In this document: in pieces, positions 1,111 to 54,481 of the stretch | How positions within the stretch are numbered: the stretch's first letter is position 1 | Layout: each line of letters opens with the position of its first letter | From: Gemmatimonadaceae bacterium | Lineage (GTDB): Bacteria > Gemmatimonadota > Gemmatimonadetes > Gemmatimonadales > Gemmatimonadaceae | Reading direction: 5' to 3' | Assembly (NCBI GenBank): GCA_019752115.1 | Contig: JAIEMN010000002.1 | Coordinates: forward strand, 124,001-188,000 | Length of the DNA: 64,000 nucleotides | Notes under the pieces: generated by a model | Told to the model about the DNA's origin: nothing | What the model saw: the letters and a program-made list of their open reading frames with translations, nothing else | Databases searched by the model: none | Made by a program: the position numbers and the translations under genes

Positions 1111-1764
1111 ATGCCCGCTTCCACCGCCATGCGACGGGCCGATGCACGGGAACGGCCGCTCGGCGCCGAGCGCCCCCGGACGCGGCTCTGGCTGGATTTC
1201 GTGAACACCGACGCGGCGGCGCAGACGCCCGGCGGCGATCTGCTGCGCGACTTCGAGGCACTCCTGACGTGGCTGCAGCAGCATGCCGCCGTGGATGACG
1301 AGCGCGCGGCAGGGATCCGTCGTCGCGCGGTGCTGCAGCCGGCGGCCGCGGCGGCCACGCTGGTGGATGCGCGGCGCGTTCGCGCGGCGCTTCGCGCCCT
1401 CGCCGAGCGCGGGACCAGCACGGATCGGGTGCGCGACGACGCGGTGATCGAGATCAATCGCGTGCTGGGGCGCAGCGCCGGGACGCGCCGCCTCGAAGCG
1501 GCGCCCGACGGCGGCTTTACGCGCAGCTTCGTGCCGACGGGCGATGCGTTCGCGGGCCTCATGATCCCCATTGTGGAGTCCGCCGCCGACGCGCTCGTCT
1601 TCGACGAGCTTTCGCGCGTGCGCCGCTGCGCCGATCCGCGCTGCCATCGCGTGTTCTTCGACGGGACCAAAAATGGTCTGCGTCGCTGGTGCGACATGGG
1701 TACCTGCGGCAACCGCGCCAAGGCGGCGCGCCATCGGGCCCGTGTCGGGAGCAGCGGCGCATGA
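1111..1764 (+). CDS. CGNR zinc-finger protein with ABATE-type N-terminal domain
   Basis: Putative stress-responsive transcription regulator of 217 aa. The N-terminal half (about residues 25-120, opening RLWLDFVNTDA) matches the ABATE domain that precedes CGNR fingers. The C-terminal zinc ribbon has Cys pairs in RRCADPRCHRVFF and RRWCDMGTCGNRAKAARHR, including the CGNR signature and a basic tail suited to DNA contact. The ATG at 1111 is about 65 bp after the divergent yjjX start, so this gap probably holds both promoters. No target is visible. The family is usually assigned to one-component regulation, but experimental knowledge is thin. Confidence 0.82.
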   Translation: MPASTAMRRADARERPLGAERPRTRLWLDFVNTDAAAQTPGGDLLRDFEALLTWLQQHAAVDDERAAGIRRRAVLQPAAAAATLVDARRVRAALRALAERGTSTDRVRDDAVIEINRVLGRSAGTRRLEAAPDGGFTRSFVPTGDAFAGLMIPIVESAADALVFDELSRVRRCADPRCHRVFFDGTKNGLRRWCDMGTCGNRAKAARHRARVGSSGA

Positions 1765-1795
1765 TGGCCAGGGTGCACCGGACCGCCCGCCTGGC

Positions 1796-2428
1796 ATGAC
1801 CACCCCGCGCACCCCCTCCAGCGCGATCGAAGCCATCGCCGACCCCGATCTCACGCTTGAGCGGGGGTTCGTGGCGTCGCTACGATGGCTGGTCGCCGAA
1901 GGGGACGTGCGTGGCGTGCGGCGCATTGCCGTTGAACTGCGCGCGCTGCGCGAGGCGCTGGCTACGCTCGACGAGACCCGGCGCGCGCGCGATGAATACG
2001 CGCGGCGCGCGGCCGAACTCGATCGCGAGCTGCAGGCCGCGCTGGCCATTCTGGGGCCGGCGACGTCGGTGAACGGGAACGGCACGCTCGTACAGCGGCT
2101 GGTCAAGTTGCGCGAGAAGCTCGCCGAAGACACGGCGGCGCGGCAGCAGCTGGTCCTCGAGCGTGATGCGTGGCGATCGATGTGCACGCTGCTCACCCAA
2201 ACCCGTGCGCGGGTGCACGAACTCCTCGACGAAACGGAGCGCGACCGCAATCATCTCGCGGCCGAAGTCGCGGTCATGCGCGATCGGCTGAATGAACTGA
2301 TGTCGCTACACGACGACGCGGCGCAGCAGGCTACCGATGCACGAAGCGAGCTGGCGGCCTTGCGGCGCCAGCTCGCCAGTTGGAGCGACACGGTGGAACG
2401 GGCGCTGGTCGAGCTGAAGCAGCTCTGA
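1796..2428 (+). CDS. Coiled-coil protein of unknown function
   Basis: I do not recognise this 210-residue protein. From about residue 35 to the end it is Arg/Glu/Leu-rich with heptad-like spacing (for example RALREALATLDETRRARDE, then RDEYARRAAELDRELQAAL), which predicts long coiled coils broken by a Gly/Asn turn (PATSVNGNGT). There is no signal peptide or membrane segment, so it is probably cytoplasmic. The frame is open further upstream, but that part overlaps the CGNR gene. The ATG at 1796 comes 31 bp after the CGNR stop, so the two may be co-transcribed. It could be a structural or scaffolding protein. Confidence 0.6.
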   Translation: MTTPRTPSSAIEAIADPDLTLERGFVASLRWLVAEGDVRGVRRIAVELRALREALATLDETRRARDEYARRAAELDRELQAALAILGPATSVNGNGTLVQRLVKLREKLAEDTAARQQLVLERDAWRSMCTLLTQTRARVHELLDETERDRNHLAAEVAVMRDRLNELMSLHDDAAQQATDARSELAALRRQLASWSDTVERALVELKQL

Positions 2429-2442
2429 CCAGCGCGTAGCGC

Positions 2443-3114
2443 TCAGGCGCTACCGACCATGGTGACGGGGCTCAATACCGCCCGTACGACCGACTCCTTC
2501 AGGTAGCCCATCTCTACGGCGTAGTTCGCCAGCTTGCGCTGCAGCAGGCGACGACCGCGGAACAGGCGCGACTTGACGGTACCCTCCGGCACGCCGAGCA
2601 CGTTCGCGATCTCGGCGTAGCGCAGCCCCTGCAGGTCGCTCAACACGACCGCCGAGCGATACTCCTCGGGAAGACCACGGATGGCCGCGGTGATCTCGTC
2701 GTCGAGGAAGGAATCGTAGAACCGGCCTTCCGGATCCGCTTCACCGACCGCCTCGAAGAGCGCCCACCCCTCGGTGTCTTCCGGCTGCTGCACTTCGCGC
2801 GCGTCGATGCGCCGCTTCCGGCTCACGAACACGTGATAGAGAATCGTGAAGAGCCACGCGCGGATGTTCGTCCCGAGGTGATACTGCTCCCAGCGCTCGA
2901 AGGCGCGCAGGAGGGTGTCCGACACGAGATCCTCGGCGTCGTCGCGCGAGCGCGCGAGTTTGAGCGCAAACGAGTACATCGCATCGAGGTGCACGAGCGC
3001 CTCGCGCTCGAACTGCGCCCGGCGTGCGGCGCGATCCTCGGGGCGCCCTGCCGGCTCCTCGGCGTCCAGGCGCGACACCGCCTGAGCCATCGTCGTCTCG
3101 TCCATGCTCACCAT
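2443..3114 (-). CDS. ECF-type RNA polymerase sigma factor (sigma-70 family)
   Basis: Alternative sigma factor of 223 aa. Region 2 is clear (ALVHLDAMYSFALKLARS, DAEDLVSDTLLRAFERW, then NIRAWLFTILYHVFV) and region 4 has the helix-turn-helix segment LRYAEIANVLGVPEGTVKSRL. The start is supported by an AGGAGA at 3121-3126, six bases before the ATG at 3114; this is one of the few strong ribosome-binding sites in the window. It starts 22 bp after the tetR stop on the same strand, so the two probably form one transcript. No anti-sigma gene is adjacent, which suggests that control is through TetR-dependent transcription or an unlinked partner (inference). Confidence 0.92.
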   Translation of the reverse strand: MVSMDETTMAQAVSRLDAEEPAGRPEDRAARRAQFEREALVHLDAMYSFALKLARSRDDAEDLVSDTLLRAFERWEQYHLGTNIRAWLFTILYHVFVSRKRRIDAREVQQPEDTEGWALFEAVGEADPEGRFYDSFLDDEITAAIRGLPEEYRSAVVLSDLQGLRYAEIANVLGVPEGTVKSRLFRGRRLLQRKLANYAVEMGYLKESVVRAVLSPVTMVGSA

Positions 3115-3136
3115 GTTCGCTCTCCTGTGGACCGCG

Positions 3137-3751
3137 CTATTCGACCGCGCGGCTCGCCTGCGCCGCCCCTTCCCGCACGTGCATCGCAATGAACCGCTTC
3201 AGATCGGCCGCGATCCCCTCCAGCACGGAGAGATCGCGCTTCACGCGCGTCATCAGGACCGCGCCCTCGAGCGCCGCAATGATGAAGCGGGACAGCCGCA
3301 CCGCATCGACATCGTCCTGCAACTGCGGACGGGCTTCCCAGAGCAGCGAGCGGATCTGGCTCGCCCAACGCTCGAACACCGCCTCGATACGCACGCGGAA
3401 CCCTTCGTGCGCGTCAGCGAGCTCCGCCGCCAGGTTCCCGAACGGCGACCCACGGCGGCCGCCGCTTTCCGACTGCAACGCCACCACGGCGTCGATGAAC
3501 AGGTACAGGCGCTCGAGCGGATCGATCATCGGCTCGCGCAGGATCGCCAGACCGCGCTCGGCGAAGCGCTCGAACTGCCGATTGAGCACTTCGTAACCCA
3601 GCTCTTCCTTGGACTTGAAGTAGTGGTAGAAATGACTCTTACCACTGAGCTTCGCGCCCTTGATCACATCGTCGACGGACGTGGACGTAAATCCGCGTTC
3701 GGAGATGAGCGTGGCGGCAGCGTCGAGGATTTGCGTGCGGCGGTCTGACAT
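3137..3751 (-). CDS. TetR-family transcriptional regulator
   Basis: Ligand-responsive repressor of 204 aa. The N-terminal helix-turn-helix spans roughly residues 5-50 (ILDAAATLISERGFTSTSV, then KLSGKSHFYHYFKSKEEL). The remaining helical part is the ligand and dimer domain, with the FIDAVVALQSESGG segment seen in TetR proteins with this type of C-terminal domain. The frame extends upstream but MSDRRTQILDAA at 3751 is the natural start. A promoter and a GGACC-N4-GGTCC palindrome lie directly upstream, so autoregulation is likely. It is followed by the ECF sigma gene and is divergent from the FIST and GGDEF-EAL genes. The ligand is unknown. Confidence 0.92.
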   Translation of the reverse strand: MSDRRTQILDAAATLISERGFTSTSVDDVIKGAKLSGKSHFYHYFKSKEELGYEVLNRQFERFAERGLAILREPMIDPLERLYLFIDAVVALQSESGGRRGSPFGNLAAELADAHEGFRVRIEAVFERWASQIRSLLWEARPQLQDDVDAVRLSRFIIAALEGAVLMTRVKRDLSVLEGIAADLKRFIAMHVREGAAQASRAVE

Positions 3752-3763
3752 TATGCCTGATGA

Positions 3764-3781
3764 TAGGACCGTGTGGTCCAA
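3764..3781. promoter_or_regulatory. Putative TetR operator A (imperfect palindrome)
   Basis: TAGGACC, four bases, then GGTCCAA. The arms and the 4-bp spacing match the perfect palindrome at 3890. It lies 13-30 bp upstream of the tetR ATG, downstream of the tetR promoter, which is a typical place for an autorepressor site. Binding is inferred. Confidence 0.6.
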
Positions 3782-3807
3782 AGCGCAAGAGGGGGGATGT
3801 GGAAATA

Positions 3808-3834
3808 CTAAGACTATACAAATCAACAACTTAG
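3808..3834. promoter_or_regulatory. Dyad shared with the hemH upstream region
   Basis: An imperfect inverted repeat beginning CTAAG and ending CTTAG. Bases 3809-3834 align without gaps to 37038-37063 at 20 of 26 positions, in the same orientation relative to the downstream minus-strand gene. The common right half reads ATCAAC, one variable base, ACTTAG. It overlaps the -10 and spacer of the tetR promoter, so a protein bound here would affect initiation. The binding factor is unknown. Confidence 0.55.
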
Positions 3835-3843
3835 TTTTTTCAA
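3815..3843 (-). promoter_or_regulatory. Predicted tetR-sigma promoter
   Basis: On the minus strand TTGAAA (3843-3838) is followed by a 17-bp spacer and TGTATA (3820-3815). This is a good sigma-70-like arrangement. It would start transcription near 3808, giving a leader of about 57 nt that carries operator A before the tetR ATG at 3751. Confidence 0.55.
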
Positions 3844-3889
3844 CCCACAAACGCGCCGACAGCAGCCCGGATCCTCGATTCCGGACGGC

Positions 3890-3907
3890 TAGGACCGATC
3901 GGTCCTA
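3890..3907. promoter_or_regulatory. Putative TetR operator B (perfect 18-bp palindrome)
   Basis: TAGGACCGATCGGTCCTA is a perfect inverted repeat. Its core GGACCGATCGGTCC recurs exactly at 37078-37091 upstream of hemH, and its GGACC-N4-GGTCC form recurs at 3765-3779. It lies between the divergent tetR and FIST genes, as expected for a TetR-family operator. Binding by the adjacent TetR is inferred. Confidence 0.7.
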
Positions 3908-4069
3908 TCAAACAGGCACACCAACTGTAAATCTGCGACTGACAACATTTTGGGCCACGATGCGCGTCCGGCGCACGATGAATACACGTTCAGATGCGGG
4001 ACGAGCTGCCGATACTTGCTACGGCAGTCGATGACGGCCCTAGGCCTCCCCCCTCTCTCGTGCGCGCTC

Positions 4070-5212
4070 ATGAAAGCCCGAAGCCTCTCCTGGACCCCCG
4101 CCGCGGGATGGTCCGCTCCACTCGGCCCGGATGAGGCCTCCGCTCACCTGATCCTCAGCTTCGGCCCCGTGGATGCGCCCGGCGCCTGCTGGTTCCACGA
4201 GATCGCCGCACACTGCCCGCAGGCCCAGCACGTCTACGCCTCCGGTGGCGGACAGATCGTCAATGGCCTGGTGCAGGACACCCCCACGGTGGTGGCGTTT
4301 CTGACCTTCGAGCAGGCCACCACCGTCCATCCGGTGGTGGTCGACGGCGTGACGATCGAAAGCAGCGCCGCCCTCGGCCACGAGTTGGGCGAGCGCCTGC
4401 GCGCCATCGACGAACTGCGCCACGTCCTGATCTTCGCCGAGGGGATCACCTTCAACGCCGCGGCGTTTCTGGAGACGCTGAACACGCATGTTGGGGCGGA
4501 CGTCCGCATCAGTGGCGGGTTGGCGTCGAATGGAACCCTGCTCTCGCGATCAGTGGTCGGCCTCAACGGACCACCCACCGAGAAGCGGCTGGTCGCCGTT
4601 GGACTCGCGGGCGCGCACATCGACATCGGCACGGGCTCGGTCGGCGGCTGGGATCTCTTCGGCCCGGAACGCGTCGTGACCGCAGCCGGCATCGCCTCCG
4701 TACACGAACTCGACGGCGAACGGGCGCTCGACGTCTACAAGCGATACCTCGGCGATTTCGTCGCCGAGCTCCCAGGATCGGCCCTGCTCTTTCCGCTGGC
4801 GGTGCGCCCGGCTCCCGACGCCCCCATCGCGGTGCGCACCATTCTCGGCATCGACGACGCCACCGGCACCCTGAACTTCGCCGGTGACATTCCCGTCGGG
4901 AGCAAGGTCCGGCTGATGCGCACCACCAGCGACAAACTGCTCGATGGCGCCGCGCGCGCCGCCGAGATCGCCAAGCCCGCGGGCTCGGCGGGCGACAGCT
5001 TCGCGCTGTGCATCTCCTGCATCGGGCGGCGCGCGGTGCTCCGCACGCGCGTCGACGAGGAAATCGACGAAGTGGCGCGCGAAAGCGGTGCCTCGGTGAT
5101 CGCCGGGTTCTATAGCAACGGCGAAATTGCGCCGCCCTCCGACGGGCGCGAGTTTGCGCACGCGGTGCTGCACAATCAGACCATGACCGTCACCACCATC
5201 CGCGAGCGTTGA
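4070..5212 (+). CDS. FIST-domain sensor protein (NosP-like)
   Basis: A 380-aa cytoplasmic protein with FIST N and FIST C halves, the architecture of the NosP family, members of which bind haem and sense nitric oxide. The N half runs from MKARSLSWTPAAGW through the SGGLASNGTLLS and GTGSVGGWDLFG segments. The C half includes AVRTILGIDDATGTLNFAGD and ends with SVIAGFYSNGEIAPP, a usual FIST C-terminal signature. An upstream ATG at 4031 is possible, but homologues usually begin near MKAR. The gene ends 7 bp before a GGDEF-EAL enzyme, so the sensor probably controls that enzyme. I cannot identify the haem ligand, so haem binding remains inference from family. Confidence 0.85.
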   Translation: MKARSLSWTPAAGWSAPLGPDEASAHLILSFGPVDAPGACWFHEIAAHCPQAQHVYASGGGQIVNGLVQDTPTVVAFLTFEQATTVHPVVVDGVTIESSAALGHELGERLRAIDELRHVLIFAEGITFNAAAFLETLNTHVGADVRISGGLASNGTLLSRSVVGLNGPPTEKRLVAVGLAGAHIDIGTGSVGGWDLFGPERVVTAAGIASVHELDGERALDVYKRYLGDFVAELPGSALLFPLAVRPAPDAPIAVRTILGIDDATGTLNFAGDIPVGSKVRLMRTTSDKLLDGAARAAEIAKPAGSAGDSFALCISCIGRRAVLRTRVDEEIDEVARESGASVIAGFYSNGEIAPPSDGREFAHAVLHNQTMTVTTIRER

Positions 5213-11072: not shown

Positions 11073-11637
11073 CGCAGCACCGAGCGTCGTGCGCTGCAGC
11101 TGGGCCGTCAAACCGCTCGACATCGTGTACCACGACACCGAGTGGGGCGTGCCGGTACACGATGACCGGGTGCTCTTCGAGTTTCTCACGCTCGAAGGCG
11201 CGCAGGCCGGCCTCAGCTGGAGTACGGTGCTGGCCAAGCGTGAGCACTATCGCGAGGCCTTCCTCCACTGGGATGTCGCCGCCATCGCGCGCTTCACGCC
11301 GGCCCGGATCGACACGCTGATGCAGAACGCCGGCCTCGTGCGGCACCGCGGCAAACTCGAGAGCACCGTCACCAACGCGCGTGCCTTTCTCGCCATTCAG
11401 GCGGAGTTCGGCAGCTTTGACACGTGGCTCTGGCGGTTCGTCAACGGCACGCCCATCGTGACGCCGCGTGCGCGCATGCGCGATGTGCCCACGAGCACGC
11501 CCGAGAGCGACGCGCTCTCCAAGGCGCTCATCAAGCGCGGCTTCAAGTTCGTCGGCACCACCATCTGCTACGCGTACATGCAAGCGGTGGGGTTGGTGGA
11601 TGATCACTTGGCAGATTGTGTCGCGAGAGCGCGTTGA
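11050..11637 (+). CDS. tag: DNA-3-methyladenine glycosylase I
   Basis: A 195-aa base-excision repair enzyme that removes 3-methyladenine from alkylated DNA. The Tag signature is complete: the zinc-site Cys in RCSWAVK, His in VYHDTEWGVP, and the C-terminal His and Cys in DDHLADC. The segment EGAQAGLSWSTVLAKREHYREAF contains the conserved helix-hairpin and the catalytic-pocket residues of the family. The ATG at 11050 overlaps the membrane-protein gene by 23 bp, which suggests translational coupling. It is followed by a strong palindrome at 11687 that probably ends the transcript. Confidence 0.93.
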   Translation: MATSNPADAAPSVVRCSWAVKPLDIVYHDTEWGVPVHDDRVLFEFLTLEGAQAGLSWSTVLAKREHYREAFLHWDVAAIARFTPARIDTLMQNAGLVRHRGKLESTVTNARAFLAIQAEFGSFDTWLWRFVNGTPIVTPRARMRDVPTSTPESDALSKALIKRGFKFVGTTICYAYMQAVGLVDDHLADCVARAR

Positions 11638-11686
11638 CGCATGGTGGTGCGTCCGCCGGGGCGTGCCGGTCACGCACACTGCACTT

Positions 11687-11751
11687 CAGGGGTCAGGGGG
11701 GAGACGTCAGGGAGGAGTTACTCCCCCCTGACATCTCCCGCCTGACCCCTG
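11687..11751. repeat. Large palindrome between convergent genes
   Basis: Two 32-bp arms (11687-11718 and 11720-11751) are inverted copies with about three mismatches, separated by one base. The left arm starts CAGGGGTCAGG and the right arm ends CCTGACCCCTG. It lies between tag (+) and the 11816 gene (-), so it may act as a bidirectional terminator, although there is no T-run. Its words resemble the ends of the repeat at 13048. Confidence 0.75.
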
Positions 11752-11815
11752 GAATGCGGTGCCGGTGACCAGTACCAACCGTCGGTTCGCTCGATGAGCG
11801 TCGAAGCGCTCTCCC

Positions 11816-12808
11816 TCAGCGCTGTATGAGCTTGACGCGCTGCCCATTCTTGAAGATCTCGATGCGATCTGCGCGCCCGTCGCGGTTCTGATCGGTCCAC
11901 ACCTGCAGCAGCTGGTTGTTGGTGTCGAGGAAGATCGCGCGCCAGGGTACGCCACCGCGCCCCTGATCGGGGATGCGCACGATGAATTCGTTGGTGCCCA
12001 GCCACTGCATGATCTCCTGGCTCGGACGCCCCTGAATCACATCGAGCGCCGAACGCATGGCCGGCAGTACCTGCGGGAAGGCGCGGGAGGCGTACTCCGG
12101 CAGATCGTCGCACCGGCCATCCTTGTCGAGATCCTGGCACACCGGCGGACCGTAGCGCAGATCATCGCACCAGCCATCGCCATCGCGGTCAAGGCACACC
12201 GACGAGCCCGTGCCCGGTGGCCGCTGCCCCTGATTGAAGTAGCGGGGATCGATCGCCGCGCCAGGCACGATCACGCCGCCCGGCGTGACATAGCCGTTCC
12301 CGTTTGGGTTCCCGCCGTATGACCCCATGGGCCCCGACGGTGACGATGCGCCGCCTGGATACGACGAAGCCGGCGAGGATTTCGCCGGCTGGTCTCCGAA
12401 CAGCTGTTCGTCAGTGATCTTCTTCGATTCAAACGCATCCCGTGCCCGTGGATCCATCTGCGCGACGGGTGGAATGAGCGGCGGCCCCTTCTTCTCGCCC
12501 GCCTTGAGGCTCTTGATCGGGAGCTCGTCGACCTTCTTCCCCTTCGACTTGTCCTCGCCGTAGATCACGCGCGCATTGGCCGGCTTGTTCTTCACGGCCG
12601 TCGCGCAGTCGGTCGGCGCCGGCTGCTGATTGGCCGGCACGCCATCGACCCACACGCGACACATCCCCGCCGGTGGCAGATACTCCTTCGGGACTTCGCC
12701 CTTGGCGTCCTTGTCGCTCTTCGATGACTGCGCCCACGCCCGATCCGCCGTCGCTGTCGTGAACAGCGCCGCGATCGTTGCCAGGAGCCGCCAGGATGTA
12801 CGCATCAT
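11816..12808 (-). CDS. Secreted protein with calcium-loop-like motifs
   Basis: I do not recognise the family. This 330-aa protein has a signal peptide (MMRTSWRLLATIAALF, likely cleaved after AWAQ), so it is exported. A Pro/Gly/Ser-rich low-complexity middle (about residues 140-200) is followed by three EF-hand-like or thrombospondin-3-like acidic loops, DRDGDGWCDD, DLDKDGRCDD and DQNRDGRADR, which suggest Ca2+ binding. The C-terminal part resembles secreted repeat-like domains (FIVRIPDQGRGGVPW). The start at 12808 is supported by GGAGG seven bases upstream; the open frame extends further but without such a site. Role unknown, possibly cell-surface or stability related. Confidence 0.7.
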   Translation of the reverse strand: MMRTSWRLLATIAALFTTATADRAWAQSSKSDKDAKGEVPKEYLPPAGMCRVWVDGVPANQQPAPTDCATAVKNKPANARVIYGEDKSKGKKVDELPIKSLKAGEKKGPPLIPPVAQMDPRARDAFESKKITDEQLFGDQPAKSSPASSYPGGASSPSGPMGSYGGNPNGNGYVTPGGVIVPGAAIDPRYFNQGQRPPGTGSSVCLDRDGDGWCDDLRYGPPVCQDLDKDGRCDDLPEYASRAFPQVLPAMRSALDVIQGRPSQEIMQWLGTNEFIVRIPDQGRGGVPWRAIFLDTNNQLLQVWTDQNRDGRADRIEIFKNGQRVKLIQR

Positions 12809-13047
12809 GCTCCAACCTCCACTAAGACCCGAACCCGGTGCGATGCCGCGTCGGTCCGCACCGTTGGTATCGAGAAGGGCATCCGCCGTGCCAGTGCGTG
12901 CCACAGGGCGTCAAGGCCAGGGGCAGCCCCGTAAGTATCGGCAGTTCGGTACCCTAGGGACAGGGGGAAGGTCCGGGAGGTCACGGAGGGGGTGTCCGTG
13001 GCGGGGGACAGCGGTCGGTTTTCTGAGGACAGCGGTGAGCGATGAGG
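12809..13047. other. G-rich intergenic stretch upstream of the secreted-protein gene
   Basis: The left part of the 371-bp gap before pfkA. It contains many short G-runs on the + strand (about 12960-13020), but I see no gene, clear promoter or terminator. It should contain the promoter of the minus-strand gene that starts at 12808. The right part of the gap is the palindromic repeat at 13048. Confidence 0.4.
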
Positions 13048-13157
13048 AACCCCTCAGGGGTCAGGGGGGAGGACCAAAGGGAGTGGGCGTCAGGACTGCC
13101 GTTCGGCTGTCCTGACGCCCACTCCCTCTATCCCTTCCCCCTGATGCCTCGGGGGTT
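13048..13157. repeat. Interspersed palindromic repeat, copy 1
   Basis: A 110-bp element bounded by AACCCC and GGGGGTT. Its core is a perfect 19-bp inverted repeat (13078-13096 and 13109-13127, AGGGAGTGGGCGTCAGGAC). It is clearly homologous to 25183-25287 along its whole length. It lies just downstream of the pfkA stop on the minus strand and could also act as a terminator. It has no coding capacity. Confidence 0.8.
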
Positions 13158-13179
13158 CAGGTCATAAAACCCCAGCCCT

Positions 13180-14259
13180 TCAATCCCCGAAGCTGATCCC
13201 AATCATCCGCGCCGTCTGCACAATGTCGTGCTTGGGGTCCACGCGCTTCGTTTCGCGCAGCACCTCGGCGATCGGCACCGTGACCAGGTGCGGCGACTGC
13301 AGGGCGACCATGTGCCCCCACTTCTTGTCGGCAACGGCCTGCACGGCGGCAGCGCCGAAGCGGGTGGCGAGCAGACGGTCGTAGCCGGTCGGGGAGCCAC
13401 CGCGCTGGAGGTGCCCCAGCACCATCGAGCGGGTCTCCTTGCCGGTCAGTCGCTGGATGTCGAAAGCGAGCCGCTCGGCGACACCGCCGAGGCGACGCTC
13501 CTGGCCCGGGAGCGAGGCGCCGATGATCGACTCCTGACCACCCTTGGCCTTGGCGCCTTCGGCGACGACCACGATGCTGGAGCGCTTTCCGCTCGCATCA
13601 CGGGCCATGATCTTCTCGCAGACCTTGTCGATCTCCCACTCGATTTCGGGGATCAGGATCACGTCGGCGGTGCCGGCGACACCAGCGTGCAGCGCGATGA
13701 AGCCCGCTTCGCGTCCCATCACCTCGAGGATCATCACGCGATCGTGCGACTCGGCGGTGGTGTGCAGCTTGTCGATCGCTTCCATCGCCGTGTTGACGGC
13801 GGTGTCGAACCCGAACGTGGTGATCGTGCACGCCACATCGTTGTCGATTGTCTTGGGCACGCTCACGACACGCACGCCTTTCTCGGACAGCTGCTTCGCA
13901 ATCGCGAGCGACCCGTCGCCCCCGATGGAGATGATCGCTTCGATGCCGAGATTGCGCGCGTTCTCGACGAGCTCGTCGGAGCGATCGATGTGCGTCCACG
14001 TGCCATCCGGCTTCTGCACGGGATAGGCGAACGGACTGCCACGGTTCGTGGTCTTGATGATCGTGCCGCCCTGACTCGCGATGCCACGCACGCTGTCGAC
14101 GGTGAGCGGTACGATTTCGTCTTCGCCAAGGAGGCCGGCAAAGCCGCGCTTGATGCCCAGCACATCCCAACCGCGAGTACGAGCTGACAGGACCGCAGCC
14201 CGGATGACCGCGTTGAGGCCCGGGGCGTCACCGCCGCCCGTGGAGATGGCAATCCGCAT
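13180..14259 (-). CDS. pfkA: 6-phosphofructokinase
   Basis: A 359-aa glycolytic enzyme that phosphorylates fructose 6-phosphate. Conserved features are STGGGDAPGLNAVIRA at the N-terminus, ISIGGDGSLAIA at the phosphoryl-donor site, PKTIDNDV at the catalytic Asp, and LGHLQRGGSPTGYDR. The donor site has Gly after GGD (ATP type) while PKTIDND has Lys where E. coli ATP enzymes have Gly. This combination is known from mixed-substrate group III enzymes, which include ATP users. ATP is the likely donor, but this needs assay. The ATG at 14259 is unambiguous. The gene stands alone. Confidence 0.93.
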   Translation of the reverse strand: MRIAISTGGGDAPGLNAVIRAAVLSARTRGWDVLGIKRGFAGLLGEDEIVPLTVDSVRGIASQGGTIIKTTNRGSPFAYPVQKPDGTWTHIDRSDELVENARNLGIEAIISIGGDGSLAIAKQLSEKGVRVVSVPKTIDNDVACTITTFGFDTAVNTAMEAIDKLHTTAESHDRVMILEVMGREAGFIALHAGVAGTADVILIPEIEWEIDKVCEKIMARDASGKRSSIVVVAEGAKAKGGQESIIGASLPGQERRLGGVAERLAFDIQRLTGKETRSMVLGHLQRGGSPTGYDRLLATRFGAAAVQAVADKKWGHMVALQSPHLVTVPIAEVLRETKRVDPKHDIVQTARMIGISFGD

Positions 14260-19520: not shown

Positions 19521-19618
19521 TTGAGAACCGAGAGCCGAGCGGTGCGCATCGAGCGATGAGCGATGAGACCGCTCATGTCGCACATCTCGCTGCTCACCGC
19601 TCGGCTCTCGGTTCTCAA
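19521..19618. repeat. Perfect 24-bp inverted repeat around a 50-bp loop
   Basis: The arms 19521-19544 and 19595-19618 are exact inverse complements, beginning TTGAGAACCGAGAGCC. The loop contains short repeats of GCGATGA. It lies between two co-directional genes, so it could terminate the first transcript or form a structured element in the leader of the cyclase mRNA. There is no T-run. Confidence 0.85.
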
Positions 19619-25116: not shown

Positions 25117-25182
25117 AGTTGCAAAGCGACACGCGGGGATGGTCTGAGGTCGGACCCGGGAGGTCAGACGACCGATGTGGGT

Positions 25183-25287
25183 AACCCCTCAGGCATCCGG
25201 CGGGAGGAGCACAGGAGGTGGGCGTCAGGACCGCGGCGGTCCTGATGCCCACTTCCTCTTTCCCTTCCACCTGAAGCCCGAGGGGGT
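25183..25287. repeat. Interspersed palindromic repeat, copy 2
   Basis: A 105-bp element homologous to 13048-13157. It begins AACCCCTCAGG and has a central hairpin (25214-25232 and 25238-25256) with the shared core GTGGGCGTCAGGAC. Paired changes in the two arms (for example the T in GATGCCCAC against G in the other arm) show some decay. It lies between the divergent kinase and lon genes. Confidence 0.8.
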
Positions 25288-25463
25288 ACTCGCGTCTGAC
25301 CTCCCACCTCCGGTCCCTCTCCCGCCAATCCGGCACCTCCCCGCCAAGCCGGCGCCAGCGCACGGGTGCACATTCCCCAGACCTGCCGGGATGGCGGCTC
25401 CCGCACGGTGCGAATCGTGCCGGAAGATGGTCGCCTCATCTCTCTGCTCAGGATTTGTCGATT

Positions 25464-28016
25464 ATGGGTCAGCGCCTCACGCTTCCGGTCCTGCCACTGC
25501 GCGGGACGGTCATGTTCCCCGGGATCACCGCCCTTATTGCGGCGGGCCGCCCTGGCACCCTGCGCGCCATCGAAACGGCGCTCAAGGGTGACCGGCTGGT
25601 CTTTGCTGTCGCGCAGCGGGACAACACCGAGGAACCCACGTCGGACATTCTCTTCACCACCGGCGTGATTGCCCGCATCGGGCAGATCCAGCGCGGGCTC
25701 GGCGGCGTGCAGCTGCTGTTGCAGGGTGAACAGCGCGCCACGGCACTGCAGTACGGGGAAACCGACGGCTATCTCACCGCGGTCACGGTGCAAGCCGAAG
25801 AAATGCTGCCGCTCAACCTCAAGGACCCGGCGTTCGAAGCGCTCCATAAGGAAGCGCGCGAGCGCGCGGCCGAGTTGGGTGAGAAGCGCGGGCTCCCCGA
25901 GGAAGTGGTGCACCAGGTGCTCGACTCGGTCGAGGACGCTGGCCGCTTCTCCGACCTCGTGGCCGGCTACATCGAACTCACCGTGCCCGAGAAGCAGGGG
26001 CTGCTCGAAACGCTCAGCGTGGAAGAGCGCCTCCGCCGCGTGCTGGTGCACGTGCAGCGCCAGATTGGCCTGCTCGAGGCGCAGGAAGACATCAAGAGCC
26101 AGGTGCAGGAAGAGCTCGGCGAACGCCAGCGCGAGATGTTCCTGCGCGAGCAGCTCAAGGCCATTCAGAAGGAACTCGGCGACGACGACTCCTCCAAGGA
26201 GATCGCCGAGCTGCGGGAGAAGCTCAACAAGCTCGTCCTCTCCAAGGAGGGGCGCGCCGAGGTGGAGCGCGAACTGGGGCGCCTGGAGCGTGCCGGTCGC
26301 GAAAGCATGGAAGCGCAGGTCATTCGCACCTACCTCGAGTGGATCGCCGAGCTGCCGTGGAACACGCGGAGCGACGATCACCTCGAGCTGGCGCGCGCCG
26401 GTGAGATCCTTGATGAGGATCACTATGGCCTCAAGGATGTGAAGGATCGCGTCCTCGAGTTCCTCGCGGTCCGTCAGCTGCGGGCCCAGCAGGTCGCCGC
26501 GGAAGTCGCCACGACCGGCGAATTCCCGGTCTCCAAGCTCAAGGGCGAAGCGACGGATGCGACGCCGACGCTGAACAGCGCCGACGACGACCGACCGATC
26601 ACCGACACCAAGGAAGCCAAGGCGCGCGCGATGGCGCGTGGCCCGATCCTCCTGTTCAACGGCCCGCCGGGTGTGGGCAAGACGAGCATCGCCAAGTCGA
26701 TCGCGCGCGCGCTCGGCCGCGAGTACGTGCGCGTGGCCCTGGGTGGTGCCCGCGACGAAGCCGACATCCGGGGCCATCGCCGCACGTACGTGGGCGCCAT
26801 GCCCGGCCGCATCATCCAGGGGATGAAGCAGGCCGGCACCAAGAATCCTGTGTTCCTGCTGGACGAAGTCGACAAGCTCGGACAGTCGTACCAGGGCGAT
26901 CCGTCGAGCGCGCTGCTGGAAGTGCTCGATCCGGCCCAGAACGACTCGTTTACCGATCACTATCTGGGCGTGCCGTTCGACCTGAGCGAAGTGCTGTTCA
27001 TCGCCACGTCGAACTTCATTCAGAACATTCCGGGGCCACTGCTCGACCGCATGGAAGTCGTGGAGTTCAGCGGCTACACCGAGCGGGAGAAGGCGGAGAT
27101 CGCCAAGACGTATCTGATCCCCCGCCAGCTCGAGGAGAGCGGTCTCGCCAAGCGCGAGCTCTCGTTCACCGACGAGGCGGTCATGAAGGTCATCAGTGAA
27201 TACACCCGCGAAAGCGGCGTCCGCCAGTTGGAGCGCCAGCTCGGTGCCGTCGCCCGCAAGGTGGCGCGTCGTGTGGCGATGGGTGATACCACGGCCATCG
27301 ACGACAAGCAGATCGACAGCGACGAGGTGCGCGATCTCCTCGGCCGCCCGAAGGTCCATCCGGAGCGTGCCAACGAACACGACGAGGTGGGCATCGCCAC
27401 CGGCATGTACTACACGCCGATGGGCGGCGACATCATGTTCGTGGAAGCGAGCATCCGGCGCGGCGCCACGCGGCCGAAGACCTCAGAGGGCGACGACGTG
27501 GTTCGCGTGGGACCGATCTCGTTGATTCTGACCGGCCAGCTCGGCGACGTCATGAAGGAAAGCGCGCGGGCGGCGCTGACGTACGCGACCAACAACGCCG
27601 AGGCGCTGGGGATCCCGCTCGACCGCGTGGCGAGCGCGAGCGAAGCGCATATTCATGTGCCCGCTGGCGCAATTCCGAAGGACGGTCCGAGTGCCGGCAT
27701 CGCGATCGCGACCGCGCTGGTTAGCGAAATGTCGAACCGCAAGGTGCGGCGCGATGTGTCGATGACCGGCGAGATCACGCTCCGCGGCCGCGTGCTCCCG
27801 ATTGGTGGCGTCAAGGAAAAGGTGCTCGGCGCCCACCGCGCCGGCATCAAGGACGTCATCATCCCGAAGGCCAACGAGGCCGATCTCGAGGACGTGCCGG
27901 ACGAGGTGCGCGAGCAGCTCACCTTCCACCCGGTCGAGACGCTGCGCGACGTGCTCAAGATCGCGCTGGTCGACGCGTCGACCGCCGCGGCAGTCGAGGA
28001 GCTGGTCGGCGTCTAG
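25464..28016 (+). CDS. lon: ATP-dependent Lon protease
   Basis: An 850-aa cytoplasmic AAA+ serine protease that degrades misfolded and regulatory proteins. The order is LON N-terminal domain (TLPVLPLRGTVMFPG, about residues 5-200), coiled coil (about 200-300), AAA+ with Walker A GPPGVGKT (400-407) and FLLDEVDKLG, and the protease domain with the Ser743/Lys786 dyad (PKDGPSAG, then GGVKEKVLGAHRAG). Length matches the family. A TTG at 25455 is in frame, but an AGGA at 25450-25453 is better spaced for the ATG at 25464. A terminator follows at 28078. It probably forms a single-gene transcript. Confidence 0.95.
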   Translation: MGQRLTLPVLPLRGTVMFPGITALIAAGRPGTLRAIETALKGDRLVFAVAQRDNTEEPTSDILFTTGVIARIGQIQRGLGGVQLLLQGEQRATALQYGETDGYLTAVTVQAEEMLPLNLKDPAFEALHKEARERAAELGEKRGLPEEVVHQVLDSVEDAGRFSDLVAGYIELTVPEKQGLLETLSVEERLRRVLVHVQRQIGLLEAQEDIKSQVQEELGERQREMFLREQLKAIQKELGDDDSSKEIAELREKLNKLVLSKEGRAEVERELGRLERAGRESMEAQVIRTYLEWIAELPWNTRSDDHLELARAGEILDEDHYGLKDVKDRVLEFLAVRQLRAQQVAAEVATTGEFPVSKLKGEATDATPTLNSADDDRPITDTKEAKARAMARGPILLFNGPPGVGKTSIAKSIARALGREYVRVALGGARDEADIRGHRRTYVGAMPGRIIQGMKQAGTKNPVFLLDEVDKLGQSYQGDPSSALLEVLDPAQNDSFTDHYLGVPFDLSEVLFIATSNFIQNIPGPLLDRMEVVEFSGYTEREKAEIAKTYLIPRQLEESGLAKRELSFTDEAVMKVISEYTRESGVRQLERQLGAVARKVARRVAMGDTTAIDDKQIDSDEVRDLLGRPKVHPERANEHDEVGIATGMYYTPMGGDIMFVEASIRRGATRPKTSEGDDVVRVGPISLILTGQLGDVMKESARAALTYATNNAEALGIPLDRVASASEAHIHVPAGAIPKDGPSAGIAIATALVSEMSNRKVRRDVSMTGEITLRGRVLPIGGVKEKVLGAHRAGIKDVIIPKANEADLEDVPDEVREQLTFHPVETLRDVLKIALVDASTAAAVEELVGV

Positions 28017-28029
28017 ACGAGGCGTTCGC

Positions 28030-28066
28030 GCGCGGCGTGGCGTGGCGCGGCGCGGCGCGGCGCGGA
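28030..28066. repeat. GGCGC-type simple repeat after lon
   Basis: About seven copies of a five-base GGCGY unit (GGCGT/GGCGC) in tandem between the lon stop and the terminator hairpin. Non-coding, probably slippage-prone. Confidence 0.7.
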
Positions 28067-28077
28067 GGCCGGCTATG

Positions 28078-28145
28078 AAAAAGACCGCAGTCTCCGGGGT
28101 TGGGAACCCTTCGGCTTCCCAAGCCCAGAGACCTGCGGCCTTTTT
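28078..28145. terminator. Bidirectional terminator between convergent genes
   Basis: A-run AAAAAG (28078-28083), a long imperfect hairpin (CCGCAG ... CTGCGG, with inner TTGGGAA and TTCCCAA arms) and T-run CTTTTT (28140-28145). It can terminate lon on the + strand and the permease-aminopeptidase gene on the - strand. Confidence 0.88.
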
Positions 28146-28178
28146 CACACCCGGCCCCCGCGCCAGCCAGATTGATCG

Positions 28179-32792: not shown

Positions 32793-34403
32793 ATGCCCTC
32801 AACGACCGCGGCCACGGCTGGCCGGGCGCGCCTCGCGACGCCCGACGACATGGAGGCGATCCACCGTCTCAACTACCGCACGTTCGTCGAGGAAATCCCG
32901 CAGCACCCGCCGAACGCCGAGCGTCGGCTGGTGGACCGGTTCCACGACGAGAATCTCTATGTCGTGTACGAGGTCGACGGTGAGGTGGTGGGCATGGTGT
33001 GCGGTCGGGCGCAGCGCCCCTTTTCGCTCGACCAGAAGCTGGGCCCCATCGATACGTGGCTGCCGCCGCACACACGCGCCGTGGAGATCCGTCTGCTGGC
33101 GGTAGACCCAGCGTATCGTGCCACCCGGGTCCTCGCGCGCCTGCTGCAAACGCTCATTGCCCACTTTGTCGGGCAGGGCTTCGACCTGGGTGTGCTCTCG
33201 GGTACCACACGGCAGCTTGCCCTCTATGGTCACATGGGGTGCGTGCCCTTCGCCCATCGCATCGGGACGCCCGGTGCCGAGTATCAGCCGATGTATCTCG
33301 AGTTGGAAACCGTGGCGGCGCGCGCGTCGCTGTGGCCGGATACCGCCTCACTGACATCGCGGGTGGCACGTCCGACAGGTGGACGCTTTCTGCCGGGACC
33401 CGTGGCGATGTACGACGCCGTGCGCCGCGCCTTCGCCGAGCCGCCGACCTCCCATCGCGCCACCGACTTCCTCGCGCAGCATGCGCGGGTCCGCGCGGCG
33501 CTGTGCGCACGCACCCACGCGCGTCACGGCTCGTTGCTGCTCGGCTCGGGGACCCTCGCGAACGATGTCGTGGGCGCGCAGCTGGCGCAGCTGCCGGGCC
33601 GCGGCGTCGTGCTCGCGAACGGCGAGTTTGGTCAGCGTCTGGTGGATCACGCACGTCGGCTCGGCTTGCGGCATACGGTGGTGTCCGCGCCGTGGGGCGA
33701 GCCCATGGATTGGGACGGCGTCGAGCTCGCCATGCGCGAAGCGCAGGCCACCTGGCTCTGGGCGGTCCACTCCGAAACGTCCACCGGGGTGGTGAACGAT
33801 CTCGACGCGCTGCGCCGCATCGCCAGTGCGCACGACGCGCGCCTCGCGCTCGATGCCATCAGCAGCCTGGGTGCGCTCCCGCTGTCGCTCGCCGGCGTGT
33901 GGATGGCGAGCGCCGTCAGCGGGAAGGCTATCGGCGCCTATCCGGGCATCGCGATCGTCCTGCACGAGGACACCCCGGCCCCCCACGCCAACATCCCGCG
34001 CTATCTCGACCTCGGCTACGCCGTGGCATCAGGCGGGGTGCCCTTCACGCAATCGTCCAACCTGCTCGCAGCGCTCGATGCCGCGCTCACAGCCAAGGAC
34101 TGGTCAGCTACGTACACGGAGCGCGTACGATGGAGCGCCTGGCTGCGACAGTCGCTCAGCGCCGCCGGTCTCACCGTGCTCGCTCCTGCGGCGGTCGCAT
34201 CACCCGTGGTGCATACCATCGCGTTGCCCCCGGAGGTGGATGCACAATGCGTGGGGGACGCCCTACGCGGGCAGGGATGGGACATCGCGTTCGAGAGCGA
34301 GTACCTCCGCGCGCGGAACTGGGTGCAGATCTGCCTGATGGGAGCGATCAGCGGGGGGCAGGTGCGGGGCGTGGTGCGGGCGCTGGTGACTGCACTGCGA
34401 TAA
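32793..34403 (+). CDS. GNAT acetyltransferase fused to class V-like aminotransferase
   Basis: A 536-aa two-domain protein. Residues about 10-180 are a GNAT N-acetyltransferase (ATPDDMEAIHRLNYRTF; RLLAVDPAYRATRVLARLLQ; LYGHMGCVPF). Residues about 200-530 are a fold-type I PLP enzyme of the class V group (serine-pyruvate or phosphonate-type), with the SGSGTLANDVVGAQ-like cofactor loop (written LGSGTLANDVVGAQ here), HSETSTGV, DAISSLGALPL and the Schiff-base Lys in AVSGKAIGAYPG. One enzyme may make an amine and the other acetylate it. The ATG at 32793 is preferred; the frame is open 27 bases upstream. A hairpin follows at 34407. Confidence 0.82.
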   Translation: MPSTTAATAGRARLATPDDMEAIHRLNYRTFVEEIPQHPPNAERRLVDRFHDENLYVVYEVDGEVVGMVCGRAQRPFSLDQKLGPIDTWLPPHTRAVEIRLLAVDPAYRATRVLARLLQTLIAHFVGQGFDLGVLSGTTRQLALYGHMGCVPFAHRIGTPGAEYQPMYLELETVAARASLWPDTASLTSRVARPTGGRFLPGPVAMYDAVRRAFAEPPTSHRATDFLAQHARVRAALCARTHARHGSLLLGSGTLANDVVGAQLAQLPGRGVVLANGEFGQRLVDHARRLGLRHTVVSAPWGEPMDWDGVELAMREAQATWLWAVHSETSTGVVNDLDALRRIASAHDARLALDAISSLGALPLSLAGVWMASAVSGKAIGAYPGIAIVLHEDTPAPHANIPRYLDLGYAVASGGVPFTQSSNLLAALDAALTAKDWSATYTERVRWSAWLRQSLSAAGLTVLAPAAVASPVVHTIALPPEVDAQCVGDALRGQGWDIAFESEYLRARNWVQICLMGAISGGQVRGVVRALVTALR

Positions 34404-34406
34404 CGG

Positions 34407-34510
34407 CGGAAGCCTGTACTGCGGAAGCTGAACCGCGGGAGCTGGACGGCGAGAACCGCAGTTCCCGATGTTCGGCTTCCGATGTTCAGCTTCCGATGTA
34501 CAGGCTTCCG
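34407..34510. terminator. Large hairpin between convergent genes
   Basis: Two arms of 27 bp (34407-34433 and 34484-34510) are inverse complements apart from a few bases and hold the words GGAAGCCTGTAC and GGAAGCTGAAC. A further nested pair lies inside. There is no long T-run, but its place between the aminotransferase fusion and hemA suggests bidirectional termination. Confidence 0.7.
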
Positions 34511-34523
34511 TCGTACCCGCCGT

Positions 34524-35663
34524 TCAGGCGCGCGTCAGCTCTCGCAGTACCAATCGCGCCACTCGTCGGGCGACTTCGTCGGCGGGCTCATCGCCGTGCG
34601 CGGTGGCGAAGGCGACCGCCTGCTCTTCGAGGGCGCCGAGACGCTGGCCGAGTTGCACGCGGTGGGTTTCGCGCGCGCAGCGGGCGAGTTCTTGCTGCAG
34701 CGCGATACTCGCGCGACGCGCGCGCGCCTCGCGAATGGCGGGCGCGGCGGCGTCTTCGAGCTGGTCGAGCGTCACCACCTCGATGCCGGGGGCCGCAAAG
34801 CCCACCGCGATCGCACCCGGTACGCCGAGATCGATCCAGAGGGCGCGATTGGCGCGGCGAGGCAGCGCCAGCGCCTGCGTCATCCCGCCGACCATGGGCG
34901 ATGTCACGTGCACCGCGAACACCACCACATCGGCCTTCGCCACCGCGTCATCCCGCGTGGCCCACGGTGCCACGGGCACGTGGAAGGTGTGCGCGAGGGC
35001 TTCCGCGCGCGCATCGGTGCGCGAGGTGACGGTCGCGCGCACGCCCGCCACTGGCTCAAGACGAAGCGCCTCGAGCACCGTGCGGGCCGCATCACCCGAC
35101 CCTACCACCAGCACTTCGCGCGGGCGGGTCGTGTCATACGACGCACCGACCTGGCGCGCTATGCAGTCGCGGACACGCTTGCCGAGCGATGGGTCCGCGT
35201 CGGTGCCCATCGCCGCGCGAATGTGGCGCGACGCGTCCACGGCCTGCCGGAAGAGGCGATCGATCGGCCCCTGCGCCATGCCTGCATCATGCGCCGCCTG
35301 CCACGCACGCTTGAGCTGACCGGCAATCTCCGGCTCGCCGAAGCGCGCCGAGCGCATACCGGCGGTCACGGCAAAGAGATGCCGCACCGCCAGGTCGGCG
35401 TCCGCGCGGTCCACGAACAACGCCTCGCCGCCGCGCACACGGCGGACGAGGGTGTCGTGGAACCACGCGCCGAGGTCGTCCTCACCCCACCAGTACAACT
35501 CGGTGCGATGACAGGTGCTGAGCAGCACCGCGTTGGCCCCCTGCCCCTGGAGCGCCACCAGCGCCTGCTCGAGCCGCTCCGGCGTGAGCCGCAGGCGACC
35601 GATCAGATCATGCTCATTGTGTTCGTGTGAGCAGCTGACGACGTGGAAGGGGAGCAGGAACAT
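34524..35663 (-). CDS. hemA: Glutamyl-tRNA reductase
   Basis: A 379-aa enzyme that reduces glutamyl-tRNA to glutamate-1-semialdehyde, the first step of haem synthesis by the C5 route. The catalytic Cys51 lies in LLSTCHRTELYWW (the family usually has TCNRxE). The NADPH domain has EVLVVGSGDAARTV and a C-terminal helical dimer domain. The N-terminus (FHVVSCSHEHNEHDL) diverges from the usual GLSHKTAP signature and the protein is a little shorter than the typical 420 aa. The start at 35663 lies 11 bp after the hemH stop, so hemH and hemA are co-transcribed. A hairpin follows. Confidence 0.88.
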   Translation of the reverse strand: MFLLPFHVVSCSHEHNEHDLIGRLRLTPERLEQALVALQGQGANAVLLSTCHRTELYWWGEDDLGAWFHDTLVRRVRGGEALFVDRADADLAVRHLFAVTAGMRSARFGEPEIAGQLKRAWQAAHDAGMAQGPIDRLFRQAVDASRHIRAAMGTDADPSLGKRVRDCIARQVGASYDTTRPREVLVVGSGDAARTVLEALRLEPVAGVRATVTSRTDARAEALAHTFHVPVAPWATRDDAVAKADVVVFAVHVTSPMVGGMTQALALPRRANRALWIDLGVPGAIAVGFAAPGIEVVTLDQLEDAAAPAIREARARRASIALQQELARCARETHRVQLGQRLGALEEQAVAFATAHGDEPADEVARRVARLVLRELTRA

Positions 35664-54392: not shown

Positions 54393-54415
54393 GCGCCCGA
54401 ACACCCACGACCCAG

Positions 54416-54469
54416 AACCAAAAACCCGAAGCCCTGAACTGATCGGTTCAGGGTTTCGGGTTTTTGGTT
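54416..54469. terminator. Bidirectional terminator between E1 and chemoreceptor genes
   Basis: 24-bp arms (54416-54439 and 54446-54469) are inverse complements with one mismatch. The outer part is an A-run/T-run pair (AACCAAAAACCC / GGGTTTTTGGTT), so the hairpin terminates both convergent genes. Confidence 0.9.
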
Positions 54470-54481
54470 GTGCGTTCTGTG

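Follow-up and report, generated by a model that had tools for sequence, protein, structure and literature searches.

Heptad-armed palindromes in a Gemmatimonadaceae genome as probable empty members of elements carrying an rRNA intervening-sequence protein gene

The window analyzed here, a 64,000-nucleotide stretch of a Gemmatimonadaceae genome, contains two palindromes that had been noticed as homologous and REP/MITE-like, and the locus raises the question of what kind of DNA they are and how they became dispersed. Copy 1 (13048–13157, no strand assigned, 110 bp) is composed of two arms of about 50 bp, each a series of degenerate heptads, around a small loop. It lies between the stop side of a gene on the minus strand, which we take from its sequence to be that of 6-phosphofructokinase (pfkA, 13180–14259), and an adjoining gene that is also on the minus strand. 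Upstream of the gene at 11816–12904, a motif, GTAAGTATCGGCA...GGTACCCTA.GGACAGGGG (12930–12967), was conserved in most relatives. Copy 2 (25183–25287, no strand assigned), whose inverted repeat reaches from 25158 to 25305, lies between divergent genes, a protein kinase gene on the minus strand and what is presumably, judging from its sequence, a lon-type ATP-dependent protease gene on the plus strand (25455–28016). Both palindromes were present at these positions and aligned over their full length.

The two copies are not isolated hairpins: the condition set for refuting a family, a lack of any other copy in the genome, was checked and does not hold. A 110-bp DNA query against the assembly (5.17 Mb, 83 contigs, 97% complete) matched 26 distinct genome places at E ≤ 1e-3, counted by hand from 41 rows because palindromes match on both strands; these places include both arms of a gene-bearing copy described below and two lone half-arms. 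A covariance model (R1) found 59 places in the genome, 43 of them strong (>58 bits), although it was built from 20 copies, so that 20 of the 43 are its training set. The underlying alignment (A1) omits the copies on contigs C22 and C42, which are cut near contig ends, as well as the two half-arms and both arms of the gene-bearing copy. The unit of about 110 bp ends in AACCCC...GGGGTT and, as expected of a MITE, the family has terminal inverted repeats, no coding capacity and many copies. When 100 genomes including its own were searched with the R1 DNA query, only two short weak matches were found outside its own genome, indicating that this sequence family is confined to its own species or near kin. 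The C22 and C42 copies (C22:190276–190496 and C42:57189–57365; L027 and L028) shared both an interrupting sequence and the position of the interruption, right at contig ends; this is possibly an insertion sequence targeting the hairpin.

Both window copies fold very stably, with energies of −94.5 kcal/mol (z −12.0) for copy 1 and −77.3 kcal/mol (z −8.3) for copy 2, each against 200 dinucleotide shuffles. The initial annotation had stated that differences in one arm are partly matched in the other, and this was confirmed: double-sided changes occupied 91 cells of the alignment, compared to 40 expected, none of 500 shuffles reached this number, and the signal collapsed once the partners were slid by one column. 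The two arms of one copy were also more alike than arms of different copies (0.83 vs. 0.74; on average, the own partner of an arm ranked 5.25 of 20), which could result from structural selection or from arm-to-arm correction of the DNA. The covariation suspected in the initial annotation is real, but DNA-level correction could yield it without selection on RNA. Flanks were no more complementary within a copy than between copies (5.90 vs. 5.75, 20 copies), and an extension of the palindromes by copy-specific pairing flanks was ruled out on average.

The suggested class is supported only in part. A dispersed palindrome family exists and is loosely MITE-like; it is not a strict REP family, and a classical MITE is not supported. 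REP palindromes are described, in the part of PMC3733652 available, as 20–40 bp long with a GTAG- or CGTC-type tag; the units here are about 110 bp, end in AACCCC...GGGGTT and lack such a tag. The profile of the REP-associated transposase (PF01797, Y1/RAYT) had no match in the genome and matched 5 of 14 control genomes. Given this absence and the heptad units of about 110 bp, the R1 palindromes are no strict REPs, and a REP/RAYT system was ruled out. Target-site duplications, for which a check had been proposed, were absent from 20 copies, where the longest direct repeat at the junctions was 3 bp. A terminator-like function had been considered for copy 1, and the scan of 12900–13300 found no consensus terminator (a GC hairpin followed by a T run). 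Together with the placement of copy 2 between divergent genes, this means that terminating transcription is no shared property of the family, and it was rejected as the common function.

What the family does enclose is a gene. At C32:138368–138902 (L040), two complete R1 arms stand inverted in a span of 535 bp, starting at C32:138368 and C32:138851 as half-matches of the 110-bp query. The sole open reading frame (ORF) between them, and the only gene found between R1 arms, matches PF05635, the 23S rRNA-intervening sequence protein (IVP), with 75.9 bits at a cut-off of 33.8, and also TIGR02436, a four helix bundle protein. It occupies the position that the small loop has in the other copies. Related structures have been solved (2gsc, which is XCC0516 of Xanthomonas campestris, and 2rld), and IVP is not known to have catalytic residues. 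A TA...T hexamer started 11–13 bp before the IVP ATG in 18 of 24 loci of the genus, suggesting that the IVP message is leaderless and starts from a promoter within the palindrome. Such a promoter would leave the left arm outside the IVP message, and a role of the arms as DNA, or within read-through transcripts, would be more likely. In their inverted repeats enclosing a PF05635 ORF, these elements agree with rRNA intervening sequences (IVSs), but no location in rRNA was seen: there was no Rfam match in the window, and none of seven 23S words occurred in the IVP loci scanned, L040 included.

Avd, a protein of diversity-generating retroelements (DGRs), is said in PMC10053308 to be homologous to PF05635. 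DGR-like retro-mobility was also considered. The single RVT_1 gene of the genome is a retron-like defence gene (RT-Protease_XI as best PADLOC match, E 4e-152; L204:1348–3015, at C7:116018). The genome thus yielded no DGR reverse transcriptase and no DGR helper, and this candidate was dismissed.

The genome holds seven PF05635 genes, and six of them had a clear flanking inverted repeat, with scores from 24 to 67.5 and a different sequence in each case; at the seventh (L042), the comparison of upstream with downstream sequence scored 10 and gave no such repeat. The arm of one of these elements, L043, had 28 matches in its own genome, including one IVP-bearing copy and empty hairpins with tiny loops (e.g., C19:259505–259611, C19:261833–261964, and C2:116179–116326). 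A further arm, L063 from genome G015, matched 12 of 30 genomes of the genus and had no match in the genome of the window. Among the matches listed for it, at least 28 close plus/minus pairs in at least eight genomes, counted by eye, were empty hairpins, and at least five wide arm pairs enclosed an IVP gene; the IVP ORF between L063-type arms was confirmed in G029, G015, G026, and G011. One full copy accompanied by many empty ones is thus the pattern in three arm families (R1, L043, and L063), and the arm families are clade-specific. At three other loci (L062, L096, and L097), IVP genes were located within extensive arrays in which a repeat of about 120 bp occurs in both orientations. The 23S rRNA IVP also appears among the figure labels in the accessible part of a CRISPR-discovery survey (PMC10910872), and our guess is that heptad arrays around IVP genes may have been picked up there as repeat arrays.

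The other hairpins of the window were compared with the same arms. Seven hairpins in the whole window had an inverted-repeat score of at least 18, compared to none in one block-shuffled window, and for six of the seven long hairpins the top lag was 7 or 14. Besides the two copies, a third, diverged hairpin with related heptads (11625–11813, with a weak covariance-model match at 11680–11758) was similar in its inner part to the arm of the IVP-bearing R1 copy. The hairpin at 34390–34527 resembled the arm of a second IVP element of this genome (L043, C19:246465; similarity 13.5, shuffle maximum 10.5), that at 54410–54475 the arm of another (L038, C62:23336; 15.5, shuffle maximum 10.0), and that at 19521–19618, weakly, the arm of L041 (11.0, shuffle maximum 9.5); no strand was assigned to any of them. 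Each of the six heptad hairpins was more similar to an IVP-element arm of its own genome than any of 100 shuffles, the arm in question being R1/L040 for three, L038 for one, L043 for one and, weakly, L041 for one. The seventh long hairpin (28059–28164), strong, GC-rich, located 3ʹ of lon and without a heptad period, is probably an ordinary terminator.

The association of IVP genes with inverted repeats extended beyond this genome. In the genus, 18 of 25 IVP loci with full flanks (11 of 36 had been dropped for short flanks) scored at least 18, compared to none of 1500 random window places, where the maximum was 17. When flanks of different genus loci were paired as a mismatched control, 33 of 600 pairs reached 18, which we attribute to many loci being orthologous with common flanking genes. 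Among loci of many phyla, 42 of 70 scored at least 18, whereas 5 of 135 did so at places 700 bp away, and in 58 of 70 the score was higher than in every one of 40 dinucleotide shuffles of the locus itself; this set comprised the best 80 of 529 relatives by similarity to the Gemmatimonas IVP rather than a random sample, and 10 of the 80 had been dropped for short flanks. No score threshold had been set ahead of the first run, and results were obtained at 18, 20, 22, and 25 for the genus and at 15 to 25 across phyla. The comparison places were taken from the loci themselves or from the window, rather than from matched small intergenic genes of other families. Two loci are shared in DNA between the sets (L087, from Gemmatimonas sp. 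UBA2094, is L051, and L093 is L049), so the two counts are partly dependent. As L051 comes from a genome assigned to the genus of the window's own genome, the latter can be described as Gemmatimonas-like. According to record titles, the 42 loci belonged to Gemmatimonadota (8), Acidobacteriota, Pseudomonadota, Cyanobacteria, Planctomycetota, Chloroflexi, Actinomycetota (Acidimicrobiia), Poribacteria, Hydrogenedentota, Methylomirabilota, Nealsonbacteria, and Balneolales. Seven of 25 genus loci and 28 of 70 others fell below the threshold, a number of these at a single syntenic position that is conserved, indicating that some IVP genes are resident without arms.

The heptad character of the arms was equally widespread. 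In IVP flanks from many phyla, self-similarity peaked at lags 7, 14, and 21 (z 12.9 at lag 7), and lag 7 ranked highest in 67 of 140 flanks, compared to 3 of 138 control pieces 670–800 bp away. The corresponding numbers in the genus were 15 of 50 flanks and 0 of 50 controls. For the arms of the R1 palindromes, the peaks were at lags 14 and 7 (0.43 and 0.38, respectively, vs. 0.27). IVP genes are thus associated with heptad inverted repeats in many phyla, and a complete element can be described as a long palindrome in which degenerate 7-bp units follow one another along the arms and a single PF05635 gene is held in the loop.

The orthologous sites revealed how these units come and go. The pfkA gene was used to anchor the site of copy 1 in 29 relatives, among which one locus (L198) was mis-anchored. 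From a conserved motif to the end of the gene, the genome of the window has 213 bp, with the R1 hairpin, and G016 has 56 bp and no hairpin. Different heptad hairpins, scoring 17.5 to 42, stood at this site in G018, G009, G006, G028, G029, G015, and G002, many relatives had no hairpin at all, and no clean insertion junction was found at the pfkA sites compared. At a second site, G029 had 168 bp with an L063-type hairpin, compared to 15 bp in G028; G006 and G018 carried a hairpin of another family, G003, G001, G022, G025, and G004 carried further ones, and G021 had what is apparently a plain terminator. Orthologous sites are therefore found empty, and their occupants are replaced.

IVP-bearing sites behaved similarly. 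At one site, two genomes with flanks 94% identical had IVP cassettes that point in opposite directions and encode proteins only about half identical (58 of 114 columns), and the R1 IVP element likewise had the opposite orientation, relative to the flanking genes, to its counterpart in G015. One syntenic site carried an IVP gene in many Gemmatimonas genomes (L038, L048, L050, L051, L058, L060, L064, L087–L089, L092, L093, and L135), with differing arms and with the opposite orientation in L092; such sharing of insertion sites may be a mere result of there being few intergenic places. Elsewhere, a 4-kb stretch between two hairpins of G029 (L227, G029:C1:5064400–5072200, at 1120–5145) was absent from G024, G026, G011, and G020, where a single hairpin was kept, apparently as a result of recombination between hairpin copies.

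Taken together, we consider it probable that the palindromes represent the empty, MITE-like form of IVP elements, which would be free-standing relatives of rRNA IVSs, and we infer that IVP drives the copying of the hairpins. IVP would bind the heptad hairpin, as a DNA cruciform or as a transcript, and host replication or repair enzymes, helped by IVP, would copy it into new intergenic places; acting in trans, the protein would also serve the empty copies. Under such a mechanism, the covariation of the arms would stem from arm-to-arm correction, and rRNA IVSs would be elements that landed in rRNA helices. A wider version of this idea, which we put forward tentatively and would sooner doubt than assert, is that IVP genes and heptad palindromes jointly make up a widespread, transposase-less class of mobile DNA, in which a non-enzymatic IVP recognizes hairpins of 7-bp repeats and recruits host copying, heptameric repeats are largely its footprints, and rRNA IVSs are landed copies.

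The palindromes might instead have arisen locally, the heptads by polymerase slippage, the palindromes by template switching (quasipalindrome correction) and their spread by gene conversion, with IVP genes merely surviving there. The greater likeness of arms within a copy fits such an origin, as do the absence of target duplication in 20 copies, the different occupants of one site in different species and the idea, put forward in the accessible part of PMC4679880, that a length of 7 nt favors polymerase slippage. However, empty orthologous sites of 9 and 15 bp suggest that entire units were gained or lost, IVP genes are flanked in this way far more often than other places, and an active spread is required for families with 43 or more similar copies. 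We ranked this account second, given that orthologous sites either have an entire unit or lack it and that the IVP association is strong, and consider it unlikely.

A classical MITE or REP family with an undetected transposase, for which the IVP gene would be cargo, appears less likely still. Inverted-repeat termini, many copies and intergenic sites are what it predicts, but the genome has no Y1 gene (Y1 and RVT_1 being the enzymes searched genome-wide), the 20 copies show no target duplication, and PF05635 was the only ORF found between family arms, in three families. Least probable, and in our view very improbable, is that the hairpins are RNA elements, terminators or RNase III targets tuning mRNA ends, in which the hairpin is kept while its sequence drifts. 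The very stable folds, the compensatory changes and the recurrence of hairpins beside pfkA in several relatives agree with this, whereas copy 1 lacks a consensus terminator, the genes on either side of copy 2 are divergent, the pfkA site is without a hairpin in many relatives, and the families are clade-specific.

That IVP genes lie inside hairpins in rRNA, and that heptameric repeats, including inverted pairs in Xanthomonas, exist, is already known. In the open-access literature, with most subscription papers and bioRxiv outside this scope, we found neither a link between IVP genes and heptad inverted repeats nor free-standing IVP elements with empty copies; the terms 23S and helix-bundle have no occurrence in the accessible text of PMC4692102 and PMC4679880. 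According to these and related papers, the origin, movement and protein role of rRNA IVSs had not become clear within 25 years of their discovery (PMC4990558), heptameric intergenic repeats are over-represented and hardly studied (PMC4692102), and, in a 2024 survey of rRNA insertions in CPR, the IVP domain is called functionally uncharacterized (PMC11270868). If rRNA IVSs and heptameric repeats are one class of element, the question becomes testable in cultured Gemmatimonas, and a widespread and unexplained small protein family gains a setting and a candidate substrate.

Among known systems, REP/REPIN sequences with their RAYT, as described in the accessible parts of PMC2817692 and PMC3116915, are alike in forming many small intergenic palindromes with non-autonomous copies and a helper in trans, but the R1 genome has no Y1 transposase, and its units are about 110 bp with heptad arms. 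Like MITEs, the R1 palindromes are short, do not code for protein and correspond to the inverted-repeat shell of an element that bears a gene; unlike them, they lack target duplication (20 copies), and the enclosed gene (PF05635) is no transposase. Avd and IVP share a related fold, according to the available part of PMC10053308. Heptameric intergenic repeats, as far as the accessible parts of the sources go, are also built of 7-bp units: GGGAATC in Xanthomonas, with 70 and 75 inverted pairs in two genomes (PMC4692102), and TAACTGA in Beggiatoaceae (PMC4679880). The 23S rRNA IVSs of Coxiella and Leptospira likewise consist of a hairpin with one PF05635-type gene (S23p/IVP) in the loop, and that of Coxiella has tandem GACAGAT heptamers before the S23p ORF (PMC4990558, in the part available). 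In contrast to these IVSs, the IVP elements described here are free-standing and intergenic, with an apparent promoter of their own, are accompanied by many empty copies, and have arms that are heptad runs of genome-specific sequence.
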